Shown here: positions 7,188-37,267 of the stretch, in pieces
Numbering within the stretch: position 1 is the first letter of the stretch
How the letters are laid out: the number at the start of each line of letters is the position of its first letter
Assembly: GCF_023169885.1 (NCBI RefSeq)
Contig: NZ_AP025516.1
Location: forward strand, 248,001-312,000
DNA from: Desulfofustis limnaeus
GTDB taxonomy: Bacteria; Desulfobacterota; Desulfobulbia; Desulfobulbales; Desulfocapsaceae
Direction of reading: 5' to 3'
Length of the DNA: 64,000 bases
Made by a program: the position numbers and the translations under genes
Notes under the pieces: generated by a model
What the model saw: the letters and a program-made list of their open reading frames with translations, nothing else
What the model was told of the DNA's origin: nothing
Databases searched by the model: none

Positions 7188-9023
7188 TTAGAGGTCCTTT
7201 TTGAACCGGATCAGAGCTGTCATTCCGGTTGGCTTGCTCGGTGTCAGAGAAAAGTCGGCGCCATGCTGTTCGAGGATTTGTTCGACTAAGGTGAGACCCA
7301 GGCCGGTACCATAGGTCTTGGTGGTATAAAAGGGATCGGTGACCCGGTGTAGATTGTGCATGTCGACGCCTGTACCGGTGTCACGGATGGAAATCAGTAC
7401 CGAGTTGTTCTCTTGCCAGCAGCGGACTTCCAGTATTCCACCGTCGGGCATGGCCTCGATGCTGTTTTTGATGAGGTGAACGAATACCTGTCTGATTTTC
7501 TCACTGTCAATATGCAGGATCGGGTCCTCTCCCTGCAGGTCGATTTCATAGATGATGGAGCTCTTCTTCATTGCTCCGTAAAAGATCATCACACTTCTAC
7601 GGATCAGAGAAAAGAGGGTCTGCGGCGATTTGACCAGCTCGTTTCTGCCGACAAAACTGAACAGGTCGGTGAGGGTCGCCTCGAGTTTACTGGTTTCCTT
7701 GATCAGCACGTCGAGAAATTTCTTGTTTTCCGCCTCCGGTATTCGTTTGCTGAGGAGCCGAGCGGTACCACCGATGGAGGTAATCGGGTTGCGCAACGTG
7801 TGCACCAACTGAGCGGACATATGGCCGAGGGCCGAATAACGCTCCGCTTCGATGAGCAAGTCCTTGCTCTTTTCCAGTTCCTGGGTAACCAACTCCAACT
7901 CGTCGATCTTAGACTGCATATCGGTGTAGAGCCGCGAGTGCTCAATGGCCAGGCTTGCCTGTCCGGCGAAGATCTCCAAAGCTTCAATGTCGGCCTGGTT
8001 GATCGGTTGCCGGGTGACGAAGTTGTCCGCTATGATGACCCCGAGCGCCTTGCTCGGAGAAAAGAGCGGGACGATGACGAAACTGTCTTCTCCCAGGGTC
8101 TCGATCAATTCGTGGGGAATGGCTATATCTGCTTGGCCCTGTCTGACCAGAATCGAACTCCGGTGACGGCAGGCGTGCATCAACGGATGCTGGACGAATG
8201 AGGCGGGCACTACCAGTGAGCGGACAATCTCATTAACGATGACGTCCTTTTTGAACGAGTCGGCAAACACCGTCGAGAAAAGATCCTGCAACTTCAGATT
8301 CTTGCGTTTGATTTCATTCCATACCTCGGCCGCATCTTCCCTGCTGCCGGGCCCGATCGCCAGTTCCCCCTGCAACATGGTTGCCGCTTCATCGAACAGG
8401 GCCAGGAAGGCCCGGTTGAAACGCAGCCCTTCCTCGGAGGTGATGCCGATGAGAATGGTCTGGAGAACGCCTTTGAGCTCTCGGGCGCTGAGATAGGCGG
8501 AGTTCATCTTCAGGTTGAGCTGGTGCAGGAACTGGGTGCGCAGGTTGGTCAGCTGTAACTTTTCCTGAAAGCGGCGGTTGTCGATGGCCAACCGCCGCTT
8601 TCGCAGGGTCTTGGCAACGGTATAGTGAAACTGCTCGATATTGACCGGTTTGGTCAGATAGTCGTCGGCACCGAGACGCAGGCAATGGAGGGCCGTCTCC
8701 AGGTCGGTGCTACCGGTGACCATGATGATGCCCAGATCGGGATCGTGATGTACCAGCTCGCTGAGGATCTCGTTGCCGCCTCGATCGGGCAGGCCGATAT
8801 CGAGCAGCACCAGGGCGACCTTCTGCTCACCGATCATGCGAAACAGTTCGGCGGCCGAGAAGGCGGCTCGCGACGGCAGGTTGTGTTTGCTCAGATAGGC
8901 CCTGAGCAGCACGGCTATTTCGGGGGAATCGTCAACGATAACAATTGTTTCATTGTCATCGACAAGTCGTTCTGAGGAAATCGAGGCATCATCCTGTCCG
9001 ACGGGTGCCAACAGCTCAACCAT
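7188..9023 (-). CDS. Hybrid signalling protein: receiver - GAF - histidine kinase
   Basis: 611 aa, soluble, no membrane helices. A receiver domain occupies residues 25-140 with the acidic pocket DD31-32, phospho-acceptor Asp75 and Lys125. A GAF-type sensory domain spans about 185-365 and a short coiled coil follows (370-395). The HisKA dimerisation helix has the phospho-accepting His408 in QLVHTLRNP. A HATPase_c domain (about 510-608) shows the N box (HLIKNSIEAMPDGG), the G1 box DTGTGVD and the G2 box GTGLGL. It is therefore a cytoplasmic kinase that integrates a phosphorelay input and a GAF ligand. The cognate response regulator is not adjacent (orphan). It is transcribed divergently from the DinG gene. 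Confidence 0.92.
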   Translation of the reverse strand: MVELLAPVGQDDASISSERLVDDNETIVIVDDSPEIAVLLRAYLSKHNLPSRAAFSAAELFRMIGEQKVALVLLDIGLPDRGGNEILSELVHHDPDLGIIMVTGSTDLETALHCLRLGADDYLTKPVNIEQFHYTVAKTLRKRRLAIDNRRFQEKLQLTNLRTQFLHQLNLKMNSAYLSARELKGVLQTILIGITSEEGLRFNRAFLALFDEAATMLQGELAIGPGSREDAAEVWNEIKRKNLKLQDLFSTVFADSFKKDVIVNEIVRSLVVPASFVQHPLMHACRHRSSILVRQGQADIAIPHELIETLGEDSFVIVPLFSPSKALGVIIADNFVTRQPINQADIEALEIFAGQASLAIEHSRLYTDMQSKIDELELVTQELEKSKDLLIEAERYSALGHMSAQLVHTLRNPITSIGGTARLLSKRIPEAENKKFLDVLIKETSKLEATLTDLFSFVGRNELVKSPQTLFSLIRRSVMIFYGAMKKSSIIYEIDLQGEDPILHIDSEKIRQVFVHLIKNSIEAMPDGGILEVRCWQENNSVLISIRDTGTGVDMHNLHRVTDPFYTTKTYGTGLGLTLVEQILEQHGADFSLTPSKPTGMTALIRFKKDL

Positions 9024-9153
9024 GGAAGCGTGTACCTAAAAATAATGGCAGGTTTTCGGAAGGCGCGCTCGGATAAGCAGAAAATGGGGGATGGCCGCCG
9101 TCGCCCCCGCCGTAATTCTTGCCTATCCAGCTGCATTCAGTGTACCGGTTTGG

Positions 9154-9182
9154 TTGAAAAATAAAAATAAAAATCGTATAAA
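9154..9182 (+). promoter_or_regulatory. Sigma-70 promoter for the dinG-ispB genes
   Basis: TTGAAA (9154-9159) and TATAAA (9177-9182) are separated by exactly 17 bases of very A-rich DNA. It faces the DinG gene at 9248. This is one of the best promoters in the window. No LexA-like box was recognised beside it. Confidence 0.75.
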
Positions 9183-9247
9183 CTGGTAGCTCGGCGGGGT
9201 CGGGTCCAACCGTGACTCCGATCCCATAGCTTCTTTCGGACACAGAT

Positions 9248-11239
9248 ATGGAACAATCGGTACAGGCGTTCTTTTCAGCAGACGGACCTTTGGCGCAACG
9301 CCTTGCCGGTTATGAATCGCGCGCCGATCAGGTGCGGATGGCGGCAGCAGTGGAAGCCTTGCTCCAGGCTCAGCCCCGGGGAACCTCCGGACAAGCCGAC
9401 TATGCCCACGTCTTGGTGGTGGAGGCGGAAACCGGGGTCGGAAAGAGTCTGGCCTACCTGGTGCCGGCAGTTTTTTCCGGAAAACGAGTGGTTGTCTCCA
9501 CCGCCACGATCAACTTGCAGGATCAGCTGGTGGACAAGGAAATCCCGCTGCTGTCCCGCATCATCGGTCGTGATGTCGGCGCCCTTTGCGTGAAGGGCAG
9601 GCAGAATTATCTCTGCCTTCATCGATGGCATCAGTTTCGCAGTCATCCGCAACAGTCGCTGCTTGAGGATCAGGAGGGGGAGCGGATCGAAAAATGGCTC
9701 GAGACCACGGACACCGGTGATCGGGCCGAGCTTTCCTGGCTGACCGACCGGTCGCCGCTGTGGCCGCGAATCTCGGCACTGTCCCATCAATGCCTGGGCG
9801 GGGAATGCCCGGAATTCGGCGATTGCTTCATCAATCGCCTGCGGCGCAAGGCCGGCAATGCACGACTGCTGGTGGTCAACCACCACCTCTACTTTTCCGA
9901 TCTGGCCCTGCGGCGCCGTGGCTATGGGGAGTTGCTGCCCCGTCACGAGGCGGTCATTTTTGACGAGGCCCATCATGTGGAACAGGTGGCAACCACCTTT
10001 TTCGGCAGCGGCTTCGGACAGTATCAAGTGTATGATTTGGTTGGCGATATGATCCGTCAGGCGGAGCAGGAGCATGGGACCGTTGACGATGAGCGATTGC
10101 TGGCCATGGCCAGCGGTCTGAAACAGCGAGTTGATCTGTTTTCCTCGCTGTTCCCGGGACAGCGGGGACGCTTTCCTTTACTGGCGTTCTCCCAGACCCG
10201 CGATGACTGGCATGAACAGGTCCACCATGTTGCCGACGCGTTGCAGCGCTGCGGCGAAGCAGCAGCCGCTCGTGACGGTGAGAGCTGGAAGTTGCTGGCC
10301 GATCGCGCTGAAGAATTACGTGCCAACCTGCTGCGCATCGCTCTGCCGGATGAGCATGGTGGAACAACCGACCAGGTCTACTGGTATGAGAGGCGAGAGC
10401 GCTCGATCACCCTGTCGGCGACACCGATACATGTTGCCGAGGATCTGCGGCAGACACTCTACGCTGCCGTGCCGAGCTGTGTGATGACCTCGGCGACCTT
10501 GGCCACCGGTGACCGTTTTGACTACTTCTGCCAGCGTCTTGGTCTATCCGACCCGGTCGCGGTGATGCAACTGAAGTCTCCGTTTCCCTACCGTGACCGG
10601 GCCCTTGTCTATGTGCCGGAGAACGGTTTTCCCGAGCCGGCCGAGGCGGCCTTCGAGACGGCTGTGGCGGAGCGAATACGGGATTTATTGAGCTTATCGG
10701 AGGGGCGGGCGTTGGTCTTGTTTACCAGTTTCAAGGCAATGGATGCCGTCGCTGAATTTTTGCAGGGACGGCTCGATTATCCGATCCTGGTGCAGGGAAC
10801 TGCCGCTCGATCGACCCTGTTGACCCGGTTTCGCCGGGAGCGGGATTCGGTGCTGCTGGCGGTGGCCAGTTTCTGGGAGGGTGTCGATATTCCCGGTGAG
10901 TCGCTGAGCGCCGTGATCATCGACAAACTGCCATTCGAGGTACCGAGCGATCCGGTGATGCAGGCCCGGATGCAGGCCATCAGCAACGAGGGTGGCAATC
11001 CGTTTTTCGATTTTCAGGTGCCTCGGGCGGTGCTGACCCTGCGTCAGGGGGTCGGCAGGTTGATGCGCTCATCGCGCGATAGCGGTTTGATCGCCATCAT
11101 GGACATTCGTCTGTTCAGTAAACGCTACGGCAAGATCTTTCTTGACAGTCTGCCGCCGGCACCGATCGTCAGGGAGCGGGCCGCCGTTGCCGAGTTCTTC
11201 GCCCAAATGGCAGTCAGTCAGCCGGAGCAGGAAGTTTAG
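9248..11239 (+). CDS. DinG/YoaA-type Fe-S ATP-dependent DNA helicase
   Basis: 663 aa, XPD-like superfamily 2 helicase. Walker A is ETGVGKS with Lys66; the Walker B/DEAH box is DEAHH (Asp239). Between them are the Fe-S cysteines: Cys114, Cys123, and the cluster Cys182, Cys187 and Cys193, which bind a 4Fe-4S cluster in DinG and XPD. The C-terminal half has SATL, FTSF and the motif VI region RQGVGRLMRS. These enzymes unwind 5'-tailed DNA, R-loops and D-loops during replication-fork rescue. It is followed 3 bases later by the polyprenyl synthase gene, so both share the promoter at 9154. Confidence 0.93.
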   Translation: MEQSVQAFFSADGPLAQRLAGYESRADQVRMAAAVEALLQAQPRGTSGQADYAHVLVVEAETGVGKSLAYLVPAVFSGKRVVVSTATINLQDQLVDKEIPLLSRIIGRDVGALCVKGRQNYLCLHRWHQFRSHPQQSLLEDQEGERIEKWLETTDTGDRAELSWLTDRSPLWPRISALSHQCLGGECPEFGDCFINRLRRKAGNARLLVVNHHLYFSDLALRRRGYGELLPRHEAVIFDEAHHVEQVATTFFGSGFGQYQVYDLVGDMIRQAEQEHGTVDDERLLAMASGLKQRVDLFSSLFPGQRGRFPLLAFSQTRDDWHEQVHHVADALQRCGEAAAARDGESWKLLADRAEELRANLLRIALPDEHGGTTDQVYWYERRERSITLSATPIHVAEDLRQTLYAAVPSCVMTSATLATGDRFDYFCQRLGLSDPVAVMQLKSPFPYRDRALVYVPENGFPEPAEAAFETAVAERIRDLLSLSEGRALVLFTSFKAMDAVAEFLQGRLDYPILVQGTAARSTLLTRFRRERDSVLLAVASFWEGVDIPGESLSAVIIDKLPFEVPSDPVMQARMQAISNEGGNPFFDFQVPRAVLTLRQGVGRLMRSSRDSGLIAIMDIRLFSKRYGKIFLDSLPPAPIVRERAAVAEFFAQMAVSQPEQEV

Positions 11240-17962: not shown

Positions 17963-20008
17963 ATGCCAACCGTTAAAAAAACCATTTGTCCTCTCGATTG
18001 TCCCGATAGCTGCGGGTTGTTGGCGACCGTCGAGGGTGGGCGGGTCTTGTCCCTGGCCGGTGATCCCGAGCACCCCTATACGCGCGGGGTGATTTGCCGC
18101 AAGATGCGGCGTTATCCCGAGCGTCTGAACCCGGAGCAGCGGCTGCTCCATCCTCAGCTGCGAATCGGTAGTAAGGGGGAGGGTCGCTTCGCCAGGATCA
18201 GCTGGGATGAGGCCTGGGAGCGTCTCGTGGAAGCTTTGCAGCAGCGGGTCGCGGCCCATGGCGGCGAGACGGTGATGCCCTTTTGTTATGCCGGCAATAT
18301 GGGATTGGTCAATCGATTTGCCGGTTTTCCATTACTGCACCGGCTTGGAGCAACCCGGATCGAGCAGACCATCTGCTCGACGGCGGCCAGCAGCGCCTGG
18401 AAGCTGGGGTGCGGCCCGGTTGGCGGTACTCCGCCGGAAGCCGCGGCGGAGGCGACGCTGATCGTCGCTTGGGGGGTCAACATCCGTGCCACCGCTATGC
18501 ATTTCTGGAACTATGTCGCCCAGGCCCGGAAAAACGGGGCGAAGCTCCTGGTTATCGACCCCTATCGCAATGATACCGCCCGACACGCCGATCGTTACAT
18601 CCCGGTGGCGCCTGGTGGTGACAGTGCTTTGGCCTTGGGCGTGTTGCGGCTGCTGCTGGAGCGGCAGCGGCTCGACAACGAGTTCATTGCCGCGCAGACA
18701 AGCGGCTTCGAGCAACTGGCTGGGTATCTGCGCAGCGTCCCCTTTGAGCGATTTACCGAGCAGAGCGGGGTTGACCGACAGACCATGGAGCAGTTGGCCT
18801 CTTTATTAGCGGAGCACCAGCGCAGTTTTTTTCGTATTGGGGTCGGTCTCAGTCGCAACAGCCGCGGCGGTATGGCGGTGCGAGCCATCACCGCGTTGGC
18901 CGCCGCACTTGGGCTCTATGACGGCCGGCCGGGGCGTGGCGCCTTGCTGTTCTCAGGTGCGTTCGGCGGTGATACCGACCGGCTGAGCTGTCCGGAGTTG
19001 CTCGGCAGTTCCCCGCGCACCGTCAACATGATTCATCTCGGCCGGATGCTGACCAATGGTGGCAGCCCGCCGGTTAAGGCGCTGATCGTCTACAATGCCA
19101 ACCCGCTCACTGTCGCTCCCGATGGGGCCACGGTGCGGCGTGGCCTGGCCCGGGAGGATCTGTTTACCGTTGTCCACGAACAGGTGATGACGCCGACGGC
19201 CCGCTATGCCGATCTGCTGCTGCCGGCCACCACCTTTTTGGAAAACCGGGACATCTACCGCTCCTACGGCCATTTTTTTCTCGGGGTTGTCGATCCGGTG
19301 GTGTCGCCTGCCGGGGAGGCCATCAGCAATTTCGAGCTGTTTCAAACACTGGCGAAAAAGATGGGGTTTTCCGACCCGCCGTTTTTTCAGAGCGTGGATG
19401 ACCGGATCCTGGCCTATTTGGAAACCGTTGCTGAATTGCCGGTCGCCGTCAGCCCGGCTGACATTGCCGGCGGCGGCTATATTGAGTCGGTGCGGGCCCG
19501 TCGTGGCGAGGCGCCCTTTCTTCGAGCCGGTGGTCGCTTTCGTTTCGTCAACGCTGACGACCCGACCCTGCCACCCCATGCCTGTCTGATTGAGGGGCTC
19601 GAGTTCGATCATCCCGACCTGTTGAGCCGCTTTCCGCTGAAACTGATAACGCCGCCAATGGCACGAATGCTCAACTCCACCTTCGGGGAACGCTACCCCG
19701 GCGAGACCGGCGAGTTGCTTATCCATCCCAGTGATGCCCGGGAGCGGTCTATCTTTGATGGTGACCCGGTGCAGGTGCGGAATTTTCGCGGCAGCGTGGT
19801 TCGGCGGGCAACGGTCAGCAACGATACCCAGCCGGGGCTGGTGGTCGCCGAGGGCTTGTACTGGCCGGCAACCCCCGATGACGCTGGCATCAATGACCTG
19901 GTCTCCCAGCATTGTTCGGACATGGGCGGAGGCACGCTGTTTCACGAGGCCCGGGTGGAGGTCGAGTCGATGCGGCGGGTTGATGCTCAGGGAGGGGGAG
20001 ACGAGTAA
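17963..20008 (+). CDS. Molybdopterin-dependent oxidoreductase (DMSO-reductase family)
   Basis: 681 aa, cytoplasmic; no Tat motif. The N-terminal 4Fe-4S motif is CPLDCPDSC, with the fourth Cys in GVICRKM near residue 46. The catalytic-site region CSTAASSAWKLG near residue 137 follows the usual position of the Mo ligand. The C-terminal domain has the pterin-binding pattern (DLLLPATTFLE, the MARMLNSTFGE stretch and FDGDPVQVRNFRG). No electron-transfer or membrane-anchor subunit gene is adjacent, so this is a stand-alone oxidoreductase. Substrate unknown. Its end overlaps the convergent downstream gene by 22 bases. Confidence 0.87.
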   Translation: MPTVKKTICPLDCPDSCGLLATVEGGRVLSLAGDPEHPYTRGVICRKMRRYPERLNPEQRLLHPQLRIGSKGEGRFARISWDEAWERLVEALQQRVAAHGGETVMPFCYAGNMGLVNRFAGFPLLHRLGATRIEQTICSTAASSAWKLGCGPVGGTPPEAAAEATLIVAWGVNIRATAMHFWNYVAQARKNGAKLLVIDPYRNDTARHADRYIPVAPGGDSALALGVLRLLLERQRLDNEFIAAQTSGFEQLAGYLRSVPFERFTEQSGVDRQTMEQLASLLAEHQRSFFRIGVGLSRNSRGGMAVRAITALAAALGLYDGRPGRGALLFSGAFGGDTDRLSCPELLGSSPRTVNMIHLGRMLTNGGSPPVKALIVYNANPLTVAPDGATVRRGLAREDLFTVVHEQVMTPTARYADLLLPATTFLENRDIYRSYGHFFLGVVDPVVSPAGEAISNFELFQTLAKKMGFSDPPFFQSVDDRILAYLETVAELPVAVSPADIAGGGYIESVRARRGEAPFLRAGGRFRFVNADDPTLPPHACLIEGLEFDHPDLLSRFPLKLITPPMARMLNSTFGERYPGETGELLIHPSDARERSIFDGDPVQVRNFRGSVVRRATVSNDTQPGLVVAEGLYWPATPDDAGINDLVSQHCSDMGGGTLFHEARVEVESMRRVDAQGGGDE

Positions 20009-33563: not shown

Positions 33564-34628
33564 ATGATGTCAATTCGCAATCTCTTTTCCCGGCCGACCC
33601 TGCAGAGTCTGTCGAAGACCTGCGGCTGAGCGGCGAAGATCGACCCGGTCGGGCTCGAAACCGTTTTGTCCGGTCTGGTGCAGACCGAGGACGCCAACCT
33701 GCTGGTCGGCTATCGGGACAACGATGACGCCGGTGTCTACCAACTCTCCGATGACCTGGCCCTGGTGACCACGGCCGATTTCATCACGCCGCCGGTCAAT
33801 GATCCGTATCTGTTTGGTCAGATCGCCGCCGCCAACGCCTTGAGCGATATCTACGCCATGGGCGGCGAACCCAAGGTCTGCCTCAATTTGGTCTGTTTCC
33901 CGTCCAGGAAGTTGCCGCCGAAACAGCTGCAGCAGATTATTGCCGGGGCGTTGAGTAAGATCACCGAGGCCGGTGCGGTGCTTGCCGGCGGCCACTCGGT
34001 GGAGGATGACGAACCGAAATTCGGGCTCTCGGTCATCGGCCTGGTGCATCCGCGGCGTATCTGGCGCAACGGCGGCGCCCAGCCGGGAGACGCCTTGATC
34101 CTGACCAAGCCGGTGGGCAGCGGGGTCTTGTTCAACGCCAATCTGAAGAAATGGGTGTCGGCCGCCGCCATGCAGACCTGCATCGCTACGCTGATCCACT
34201 TGAACCGAACGGCGGCCGAAATCATGAAGCGGTATGCCATCCATGCGGCCACCGACGTTACCGGATTCGGGCTGGGGGGACATGCATTGGAGATGGCCAA
34301 GGCCTCGCAGGCAACACTGTGTCTGACGCTGGCCGATGTGCCGGTGCTGGACGAAGCCGGTGCCATGTATCGCAAGGGGATGAGCACCGGGGTCAACCGG
34401 GCCAACGAAAAGCTGCTGGCAGACCACCTTCGTTTTGCTCGTGATTACCCTGACTGGCAACGTCAGCTCTTGTTTGATCCCCAGACCAGCGGCGGTCTTC
34501 TGGCCGCCCTGCCGGCGGACCAGGCGACTGATCTGTTGGCGGCATTGCATCAGGCGGGGGTATCAGCGGCGGCGCAAATTGGCGAAGTGGTTGTGGACGC
34601 AGATTCGCCCGGAATCATCGTCGCCTGA
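33564..34628 (+). CDS. selD: Selenide water dikinase, itself a selenoprotein (UGA-encoded Sec)
   Basis: 354 aa if the in-frame TGA at 33627-33629 is read as selenocysteine. The frame upstream of the TGA continues the family sequence: SKTCG-U-AAKIDPVGLE, with Sec22 where E. coli SelD has Cys17 and Lys25 where it has Lys20. Downstream VQTEDANLLVGYRDNDDAGVYQL starts the ATP-binding domain, with GGHSVEDDEPKFG and DVTGFGLGGH later. SelD makes selenophosphate from selenide and ATP for Sec-tRNA. A hairpin 11 bases after the TGA could be the bacterial SECIS. A conventional annotator would start at 33666 and lose the catalytic N-terminus. The organism must also carry selA, selB and selC. Confidence 0.9.
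33640..33658 (+). promoter_or_regulatory. Candidate bacterial SECIS hairpin in selD
   Basis: TCGACCC (33640-33646) pairs with GGG-C-TCGA (33651-33658) with one bulged C, closing on a GGTC loop. It starts 11 bases after the UGA, within the distance used by bacterial SECIS elements, and the loop begins with GG. Sequence is compatible with SelB binding but not proof. Confidence 0.6.
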
Positions 34629-35589: not shown

Positions 35590-36173
35590 CACGTCGACAA
35601 CTCTTGCACCTGGCGATGACGGAAGCAATCGACCAGATGGTCATTGACCATGCCGGCCGATTGCATGAAGGCATAGCAGATGGTCGAACCGACAAAACTG
35701 AAGCCCTGTGCCTTCAGCGATGCAGCCATTCGATCCGATTCCGGCGAGCAGGCGGGGATCTCAGCAAGGGTTCGGAAATGGTGCTGGATCGGTCGATGAT
35801 CCACAAACTGCCAGAGATAATCTGCGAAGCTGTCGTAGTGTTCCTTGATTCTCAACACCGCGGTGGCGTTGTTCACCGCTGCCTCTATTTTCTTCCGGTT
35901 GCGCACGATCCCGGAGTCCTGAAGCAACCGTTCCACTTCGGGTGTCCCGAATCGACAGACGTGTTCGGCCTCGAAACCTGAGAAGGCCCGCCGATAGTTG
36001 TCCCGCTTCCTCAGAATAGTCAGCCAGCTCAGACCGGCCTGGGCACCTTCCAGGACCAAGAGTTCGAACAGAGCCCGGTCGTCACGGAGGGGAACACCCC
36101 ATTCCCGGTCATGATAGGCCGTGTAGAGCGGATCACTGCCGCACCAGCCGCATCTTGTCAGCCTATCGCTCAT
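35589..36173 (-). CDS. tag: 3-methyladenine DNA glycosylase I
   Basis: 194 aa, start at 36173 (ATGA overlap with the preceding gene). Zinc-snap cysteines are in RCGWCG near the N-terminus; the family motifs YHDREWG and LEGAQAGLSWLTIL are present. C-terminal zinc ligands appear in the CYAFMQSAGMVNDH region (Cys and His). Removes 3-methyladenine from alkylated DNA in base-excision repair. Confidence 0.93.
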   Translation of the reverse strand: MSDRLTRCGWCGSDPLYTAYHDREWGVPLRDDRALFELLVLEGAQAGLSWLTILRKRDNYRRAFSGFEAEHVCRFGTPEVERLLQDSGIVRNRKKIEAAVNNATAVLRIKEHYDSFADYLWQFVDHRPIQHHFRTLAEIPACSPESDRMAASLKAQGFSFVGSTICYAFMQSAGMVNDHLVDCFRHRQVQELST

Positions 36174-37126
36174 GGCGTCGCTGTCGCCGGAGGAGCTGTG
36201 GAGGTCTCCGGCGGTTCTTCGCAATCGCTGAGGATGGAACACCCGTTTTCCACCGGGGGAAGCAGCGGAGTCGACAGGCTTGATTGACCGGATGGGGATT
36301 GGGTTGGAAGCGGCGCCGCATCGCCCAAGCCGCATTGTTTCCGAAGATGGTTCCGGATGGCGGTTGCTCCTCTGATGATGGTGATGGTTTCATCGGTTCG
36401 CTCGAGCAGCACCGGGACCTCGAGTACTTCCAGCTTCTTGAGAAAGGAGCGGTTCACCTGGGGACGGTAGCCTTCGGTGAAGGTGGCTCCGGGAAAAGCG
36501 AAGGAGGTGATGGTGTCGATCGGATTGAAGGAGACGGCGCAGTGATTGCTGCCTGATAGTTCTTCGATGATGGTCTCGCAGTGGTTGCAGGTCGAGGAGA
36601 AAAACAGATAGAAATGGTGGGTTGCACCGCTCGGTTGGAAGTGGGCCAACGTACCTTCTTGCAATGAATTGTCGTTGTCGGCCGAGGCGCTGAAATCGAG
36701 GCTGGCGAATGCGAGCAGCACGGACCCGAAGACGAGCAGCGCCTTAGCCATCTGTTTCAGGCCGAGAAAGAGGTTGATGATCAGGAGCAGGGCGAGGATG
36801 ATCAGACAATAAGAGCAGTATACCTGCGCCACGACGGTCTGAAACGAGAGCAGCACCCCTTCTGCCGCCAGAGCGGCGATCAACAATAGGCTCACCAGGC
36901 GGCGCCAGTTGTCGGATCCCCGCCGGGCACGGCTGAGGCCAAAACTGATGACGAGGAAAAACGCCAACCCAGCCAGATTGAAATAGAGTGGATCGACGGT
37001 GGTCATGGCGTCGACGATCCGGCAACCTTCATCCTGGCAGAGACTGGTGTCCTGCAGATGGATGAGCAGGGCCTGAATGGCCGTCAATATAACGCCAACG
37101 ATGGCGGTGAGCAGACTGACAATCAT
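36170..37126 (-). CDS. VKOR-thioredoxin fusion (oxidative disulfide protein)
   Basis: 318 aa from ATG 37126; the extra frame to 37258 adds a Cys-rich leader without a ribosome site. The N-terminal VKOR domain has four or five helices and the cysteines Cys30/Cys35 and CSYC at 104-107. A thioredoxin-like domain follows with STCNHC (Cys180/Cys183). This layout, VKOR plus Trx in one chain, is a known route for DsbA/DsbB-like disulfide formation in the periplasm. The last 50 residues are Pro/Ser/Thr-rich. It overlaps tag by 4 bases. Confidence 0.87.
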   Translation of the reverse strand: MIVSLLTAIVGVILTAIQALLIHLQDTSLCQDEGCRIVDAMTTVDPLYFNLAGLAFFLVISFGLSRARRGSDNWRRLVSLLLIAALAAEGVLLSFQTVVAQVYCSYCLIILALLLIINLFLGLKQMAKALLVFGSVLLAFASLDFSASADNDNSLQEGTLAHFQPSGATHHFYLFFSSTCNHCETIIEELSGSNHCAVSFNPIDTITSFAFPGATFTEGYRPQVNRSFLKKLEVLEVPVLLERTDETITIIRGATAIRNHLRKQCGLGDAAPLPTQSPSGQSSLSTPLLPPVENGCSILSDCEEPPETSTAPPATATP

Positions 37127-37267
37127 ATCTTGTTGAAATGGTGTGCAATGATTAAGTTGACCACGACATATTAGAAGCTTGAGCAATAAAGTCAATAAAC
37201 AAACGGCTCGATCGGAAACGATGCGGATGTCCCGACCGGGGACGCAGCCGATACGCACGAGGAAAGA

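Follow-up and report, generated by a model that had tools for sequence, protein, structure and literature searches.

A selenophosphate synthetase gene of Desulfofustis limnaeus with an in-frame UGA almost certainly read as selenocysteine

The selD gene and its in-frame UGA

The window (the whole 64,000-nucleotide stretch of Desulfofustis limnaeus DNA that was analyzed) sits in a single-contig genome of 4,232,141 bases, which is 97.83% complete. Its forward strand carries a selD gene encoding selenophosphate synthetase (33567..34628), which is full-length when an in-frame UGA at 33627..33629 is translated as selenocysteine (Sec). Translated in this way, the frame reads MMSIRNLFSRPTLQSLSKTCG-U-AAKIDPVGLE and stays open up to a second TGA at 34626..34628. 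The latter is taken as the true stop codon, as the relatives in class A1 (the SelD class of the window gene, described below) have a TAA, TAG or TGA stop at a similar distance, 332-334 codons past the Sec codon. The original prediction had placed the first TGA within the SelD frame SKTCG-U-AAKIDPVGLE, and the open translation up to 34626 bears this out.

The protein matches TIGR00476 with 375.6 bits (cut-off 125), contains the domains PF00586 (AIRS, 92.1 bits) and PF02769 (AIRS_C, 67.7 bits), and is homologous over most of its length to the E. coli SelD 3u0o and to the SelD 2yye/2zod (204 and 202 bits). In the alignment to 3u0o, U22 (numbered from the ATG at 33564), K25 and D55 face Cys17, Lys20 and Asp51, which presumably have catalytic roles in the E. 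coli enzyme, and U22-A-A-K25 stands opposite C17-G-C-K20, in agreement with a C/U-x-x-K motif. The UGA had been proposed to occupy the catalytic position, and it does so in that Sec22 is aligned with Cys17; the E. coli gene encodes a cysteine where the window gene has UGA. The Lys25 codon is located at 33636..33638. The Cys20 codon (33621..33623) opens the Cys-Gly-Sec (CGU) motif of this SelD class, which the class-A rows show as TCG-U-(A/S)(A/S)K.

Two in-frame ATG codons, at 33564 and 33567, are candidates for the start of selD. In the 7-row clade of the window gene, the column of the second ATG holds MS in five relatives and MN in one (L105); because these six nearest relatives begin at that column, the gene probably starts at 33567. 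Among the matches listed, the named organisms with the most similar SelDs are a Desulfobulbaceae MAG, at 72% identity, and three MAGs of Desulfofustis, at 68-70%. Promoter and terminator scans returned nothing beyond chance.

The ORF list also holds a truncated frame with a TTG start (33666..34628, forward strand), the start that was originally expected to cut the protein short, and its product lacks Sec22 and Lys25. An annotation that ignores Sec would, in this way, delete the catalytic end of SelD. The frame is mechanically callable, and the functional protein could in principle begin at this TTG or later, with the upstream stretch never being reached by read-through. However, such a product would be devoid of the residues that align with E. 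coli Cys17 and Lys20, and relatives conserve the protein sequence on either side of the TGA; a downstream start is, consequently, exceedingly improbable.

SelD classes and conservation of the TGA

The relatives were arranged in a tree of 140 rows, a quick LG+G4 build that gave long-branch warnings. In the tree, L132 and L133 were dropped as duplicates and L083 was anchored to its own TGA; L210 and L222 (identical over the first 200 bases) were dropped from the codon analysis, and L219 (a split gene of G035) was not used. The window gene is one of 48 rows that form a clade with an SH-aLRT of 100, and TGA occupies the Sec codon in all 48. This clade, class A, is divided into A1 (the window gene and 28 others) and A2 (19 rows). 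The full class-A set was drawn from the best matches and contains at least 73 distinct genes; among these best matches, the codon is TGA in 31/31 distinct A1 genes and 42/42 distinct A2 genes (73/73). Cys-Gly directly precedes Sec in all class-A rows read, although L210-L239 were assigned to class A by motif and similarity rather than by the tree, so that their CGU motif is partly a matter of definition, from which the 48 tree rows are exempt. As judged from these alignments, the window selD sits in a well-supported SelD class with a fixed Cys-Gly-Sec motif. A separate clade, class B, which holds the second selD of this genome, consists of 32 rows with TGA and 3 with Cys (35 in total).

No Cys version of class A was found among the 73 distinct genes taken from the best matches, and all class-A copies examined seem to depend on selenium themselves. 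A scan of 395 genomes for the pattern TCG-(TGN)-AAK hit 24 sites, spread over 21 genomes; 22 of them had TGA and two had TGY. The reversed control pattern hit four. Nineteen of the 24 were SelD among the matches listed, all with TGA; the other five were two TGY and two TGA matches that were not SelD, and one TGA match in a broken-frame piece of SelD. This pattern, which misses variants such as TCG-U-SAK, yielded no Cys version of a CGU-class SelD in the 395 genomes.

These observations bear on the reading in which the window copy is a pseudogene or contains a sequencing error, the TGA being a nonsense change in a Cys-SelD gene. Loss of the window copy would be tolerable in a genome with a second selD, and no match to selA, which is discussed below, was seen over the cut-off. 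Against this, the same codon is TGA in 73/73 distinct class genes from many genomes, so that the TGA is not a lone sequencing error; about 333 codons remain open past the TGA in both the window gene and its A1 relatives, the N-terminus ahead of the TGA is conserved, and the codons past it are constrained. Barring the possibility that the whole class consists of pseudogenes, the conserved TGA refutes this reading, to which hardly any probability can be assigned. The sequence comparison makes it almost certain that the UGA at 33627 specifies selenocysteine.

SelD proteins that contain Sec have long been known as a family, and the window selD is ordinary in kind. In the table of PMC1794560, Sec-SelD is represented by 38 sequences, second to FdhA; that paper lists it for ten Deltaproteobacteria, and the SelD family accounts for 20% of the counted Sec-to-Cys changes. 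The window protein shares with the known Sec-SelDs (UxxK, TIGR00476) the family, the catalytic position, the UxxK motif and a hairpin behind the UGA. By contrast, its class has an extra Cys two residues ahead of the Sec, fixed in the rows read, and is without a Cys version in the 73 distinct genes among the best matches. Neither the CGU class nor paired Sec-SelDs were described in the literature searched, as far as the available text of those papers goes and with subscription papers and supplements lying outside the search. The nature of this class (the CGU motif, the lack of a Cys version and the pairing of two Sec-SelDs) therefore poses a modest question beyond the ordinary kind; if strict Sec dependence of the class is confirmed, it could be used to test why some enzymes never revert to cysteine.

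The hairpin downstream of the UGA

A bSECIS-like hairpin occupies 33640..33658 on the forward strand; its stem has 7 bp and a single bulged C, and its loop is GGUC. It is composed of a 5′ arm (33640-33646), the GGTC loop (33647-33650) and a 3′ arm (33651-33653 and 33655-33658) with the bulge at 33654. According to PMC13188914, a bSECIS has a minimum free energy (MFE) of −7.5 kcal/mol or lower, a loop of 3-9 nt, a stem of 4-16 bp, a G in the first two loop positions and a spacing of 16-37 nt from the UGA; bSECIS elements have also been reported in prokaryotic Sec-SelD (PMC4561486). The window hairpin has an MFE of −8.4 kcal/mol, a 4-nt loop (GGUC), a stem of 7 bp with one bulge and a spacing of 17 nt, and all of these values lie within the published ranges. 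The proposal that a hairpin starting at the 11th base past the TGA fits a bSECIS was thus sound by four published criteria. GGTC is found 17 nt past the UGA in 29 of the 31 A1 genes.

In this genome, two FdhA-like genes (L256 and L257) have GGTC 18 nt past their TGA (counted by eye); they carry GGCAGGTCTTGCC behind the TGA, which resembles the classic formate dehydrogenase bSECIS. Compared with the E. coli formate dehydrogenase element, the window hairpin has the same GGUC loop, at a distance nearly equal to that in the two FdhA-like genes, and differs by the single C that bulges from the 3′ arm of its stem.

Codon constraint was ranked over invariant columns for which at least four codons are used. 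Among the 101 such columns of A1, ranks 1, 2 and 3 go to the loop codons GTC, GGG and CCG, respectively. The A2 hairpin contains or adjoins the three highest-ranked of 114 columns, and the same holds for ranks 2 and 3 of 73 at the hairpin of class-B Sec genes. In the remaining Sec genes, which are rich in Firmicutes, the first 14 columns reach no better than rank 14 of 70, and in the Cys genes no better than rank 39 of 94. When near columns as a whole were compared with far columns, the p-values were 0.068 for A1, 0.029 for A2 and 0.32 for the class-B Sec genes. In addition, the window hairpin is better than 95.5% of controls in which the codons were changed and the protein preserved (4.5% were as good). 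Ninety-five percent of such controls were beaten by the hairpins of 20/31 A1, 42/42 A2 and 27/43 class-B Sec genes, leaving 11/31 A1 genes that fail to do so, in tests that are not blind because the place of the hairpin was picked from the same data. For comparison, the same level was reached by 0/3 class-B Cys genes, by 1/38 (A1 place) and 3/38 (B place) of the other Cys genes, and by 3/18 of the other Sec genes (B place). Codon constraint and the codon-preserving controls together support the view that the hairpin structure has been kept by selection and is not a product of chance.

Covariation lends this view thin support. In the 31 A1 sequences, 93.5% of the cells are paired (0/500 shuffles as high), with six double-change cells (6/500 shuffles as high) that fall in 2/7 pairs (91/500). 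In A2, 29 of the 42 sequences were aligned for the pair counts, and 98.0% of the cells are paired (135/500 shuffles as high); a single double change was seen (42/500).

Stability by itself was also considered as proof of a bSECIS and was rejected. Dinucleotide shuffles gave no support, the stability being not unusual in any of three stretches (z = +0.60, −0.19 and +0.61). A scan with loose bSECIS rules passed 19/31 A1, 42/42 A2, 37/43 class-B Sec and 17/18 other Sec genes, but also 1/3 class-B Cys and 23/38 other Cys genes, and is therefore non-discriminating; its greedy bulge rule misses the window's own hairpin. When the best hairpin was searched for blindly, many A1 genes, that of the window among them, had it elsewhere, and Rfam gave no match at the hairpin.

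Selenocysteine machinery and the two SelDs

The genome contains two of the components that were to be looked for if the UGA is read as Sec. SelB matches TIGR00475 with 364.7 bits, over the cut-off, and the tRNA-Sec encoded by selC matches RF01852 with 72.5 bits and has the anticodon UCA, as read from the alignment. With the SelD frame on both sides of the codon, TGA in 73/73 class genes, and selB and selC present, the central claim of the original prediction, that selD is itself a selenoprotein gene, has held up.

No selA match over the cut-off was found in this genome, in which the sequence reads N beside the expected neighbor gene of selA. The gene adjoining selA in G001, a genome of the same genus, has a counterpart here (48% identity) beside the N stretch. 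A weak PF03841 match (19.4 bits, cut-off 22.8) lies in an ORF that we take to be a trans-sulfuration PLP enzyme. In the relatives set, which includes this genome, selA exceeds the cut-off in 49 of 58 genomes; a 16S gene start is close to selA in 2/6 selA loci scanned in relatives, and an N stretch abuts selA in one single-contig relative. A Sec pathway without selA was considered and is unsupported, given the N stretches and the location of selA close to 16S in some relatives. In several relatives, the distance between selA and a 16S rRNA gene start is no more than about 0.7 kb, or a contig ends no more than about 0.3 kb away from selA (L059 3561-3689 and L069 3405-3504; also L060, L064 and L065), and such positions may cause it to be easily lost from assemblies.

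Further genes of this genome have UGA codons at likely Sec sites. Four molybdopterin enzymes (L256, L257, L260 and L262) contain an in-frame TGA at an AR(L/I)-U-H(S/A) site. Unlike these four, a molybdopterin enzyme inside the window (about 18140-19360; G000:C1:266140-267360) has no in-frame TGA in the matched stretch. A rhodanese-like protein (L264) has a TGA at 1711 (near G000:C1:1776052) in the context FYCGGYT-U-GMTTENASLAKEL, in a frame that is open for about 210 codons before and about 250 codons after it, and it is probably another selenoprotein.

It is highly probable that the window gene encodes a Sec-containing SelD, in which SelB and the hairpin decode the UGA at 33627, Sec22 serves as the nucleophile, and the supply of selenophosphate depends on the enzyme itself. 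In this model, SelB would deliver Sec-tRNA-Sec to the UGA, aided by the hairpin just downstream; Sec22 would act as the catalytic nucleophile and accept selenide or a delivered selenium atom; and SelD would make selenophosphate from selenide and ATP. The selenophosphate would in turn supply Sec-tRNA synthesis, including that for the Sec of SelD itself, which makes the system self-dependent. Sec insertion, SelB binding and enzyme activity of the window SelD are all predicted here from the gene and its genome.

A different possibility is that the UGA is read as another amino acid without Sec, or that the second SelD does all of the selenium work. Sec-free readthrough is described for hymenopteran SPS1-UGA (PMC4561486), and the existence of two SelDs in this genome would leave room for another role of the window copy. 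However, selB and selC are present together with further UGA genes having FdhA-type Sec sites, and class A is the sole SelD found in 18 of 53 genomes, which makes these alternatives very improbable in comparison with Sec insertion and selenophosphate synthesis by the window SelD.

The second selD (G000:C1:929270-930196; L002, and L023 at about 8270-9299) contains one TGA and scores 365.5 bits. It belongs to class B, has the motif GAG-U-ASKLAPGDL, and is followed by a TusA-DsrE ORF, which is presumably YedF-like. No Cys-SelD over the cut-off was found in this genome, which instead has two diverged Sec-SelDs. Since both SelDs found need Sec, what the selenium pathway produces is also required to run it. 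Photobacterium profundum also has two selD genes, one Sec and one Cys (PMC1273633), whereas here both are of the Sec type and belong to diverged classes. In a census of 58 genomes, 53 were classified (four had no SelD over the cut-off and one had a split gene): 48 had UGA-type SelD only, five had a Cys copy, and 15 had more than one SelD. Seventeen of the 18 genomes in which class A is the sole SelD found have selA over the cut-off, so class A is probably self-sufficient, making selenophosphate and serving the Sec trait alone, although these genomes are mostly draft assemblies in which a copy may have been missed. The same-genus genome G001 has a class-B SelD only. The two SelDs of the present genome may divide the labor between them.

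The surroundings of selD were compared in 29 A1, 38 A2 and 40 B loci of sufficient length. Seven A1 loci, including the window, have a common downstream gene on the opposite strand, which in the window is located at 36173-37258 (reverse strand) and has a weak VKOR match (22.5 bits, cut-off 27.5). Upstream of other A1 selD genes, MauE-like (7 loci), rhodanese-like (7 loci) and C_GCAxxG_C_C-like (6 loci) genes are found, the family identities having been checked in two loci (L136 and L139). A YedF-like gene is located nearby in fifteen class-B loci, and a TauE/SafE-like gene lies downstream of selD in eleven A2 loci (family checked in one, L114). The window selD has none of the MauE/rhodanese/C_GCAxxG_C_C, TauE/SafE or YedF-like neighbors. 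The lack of a Cys version in 73 genes and the class-specific neighbor genes hint at a functionally distinct, Sec-obligate SelD class, whose Cys-Gly-Sec pair would serve in selenium relay or redox gating and whose selenium partner would differ from that of the YedF-linked SelD, but such a class is considered unlikely.

Rhodaneses can pass selenium to SelD, and the MauE-rhodanese-C_GCAxxG_C_C set is possibly a selenium or sulfur delivery unit. Genes resembling this set lie just upstream of the A1 selD in L134, L136, L137, L139 and L142. In two A2 loci (L114 and L128), the start of the TauE/SafE-like gene coincides with or adjoins the selD stop codon.
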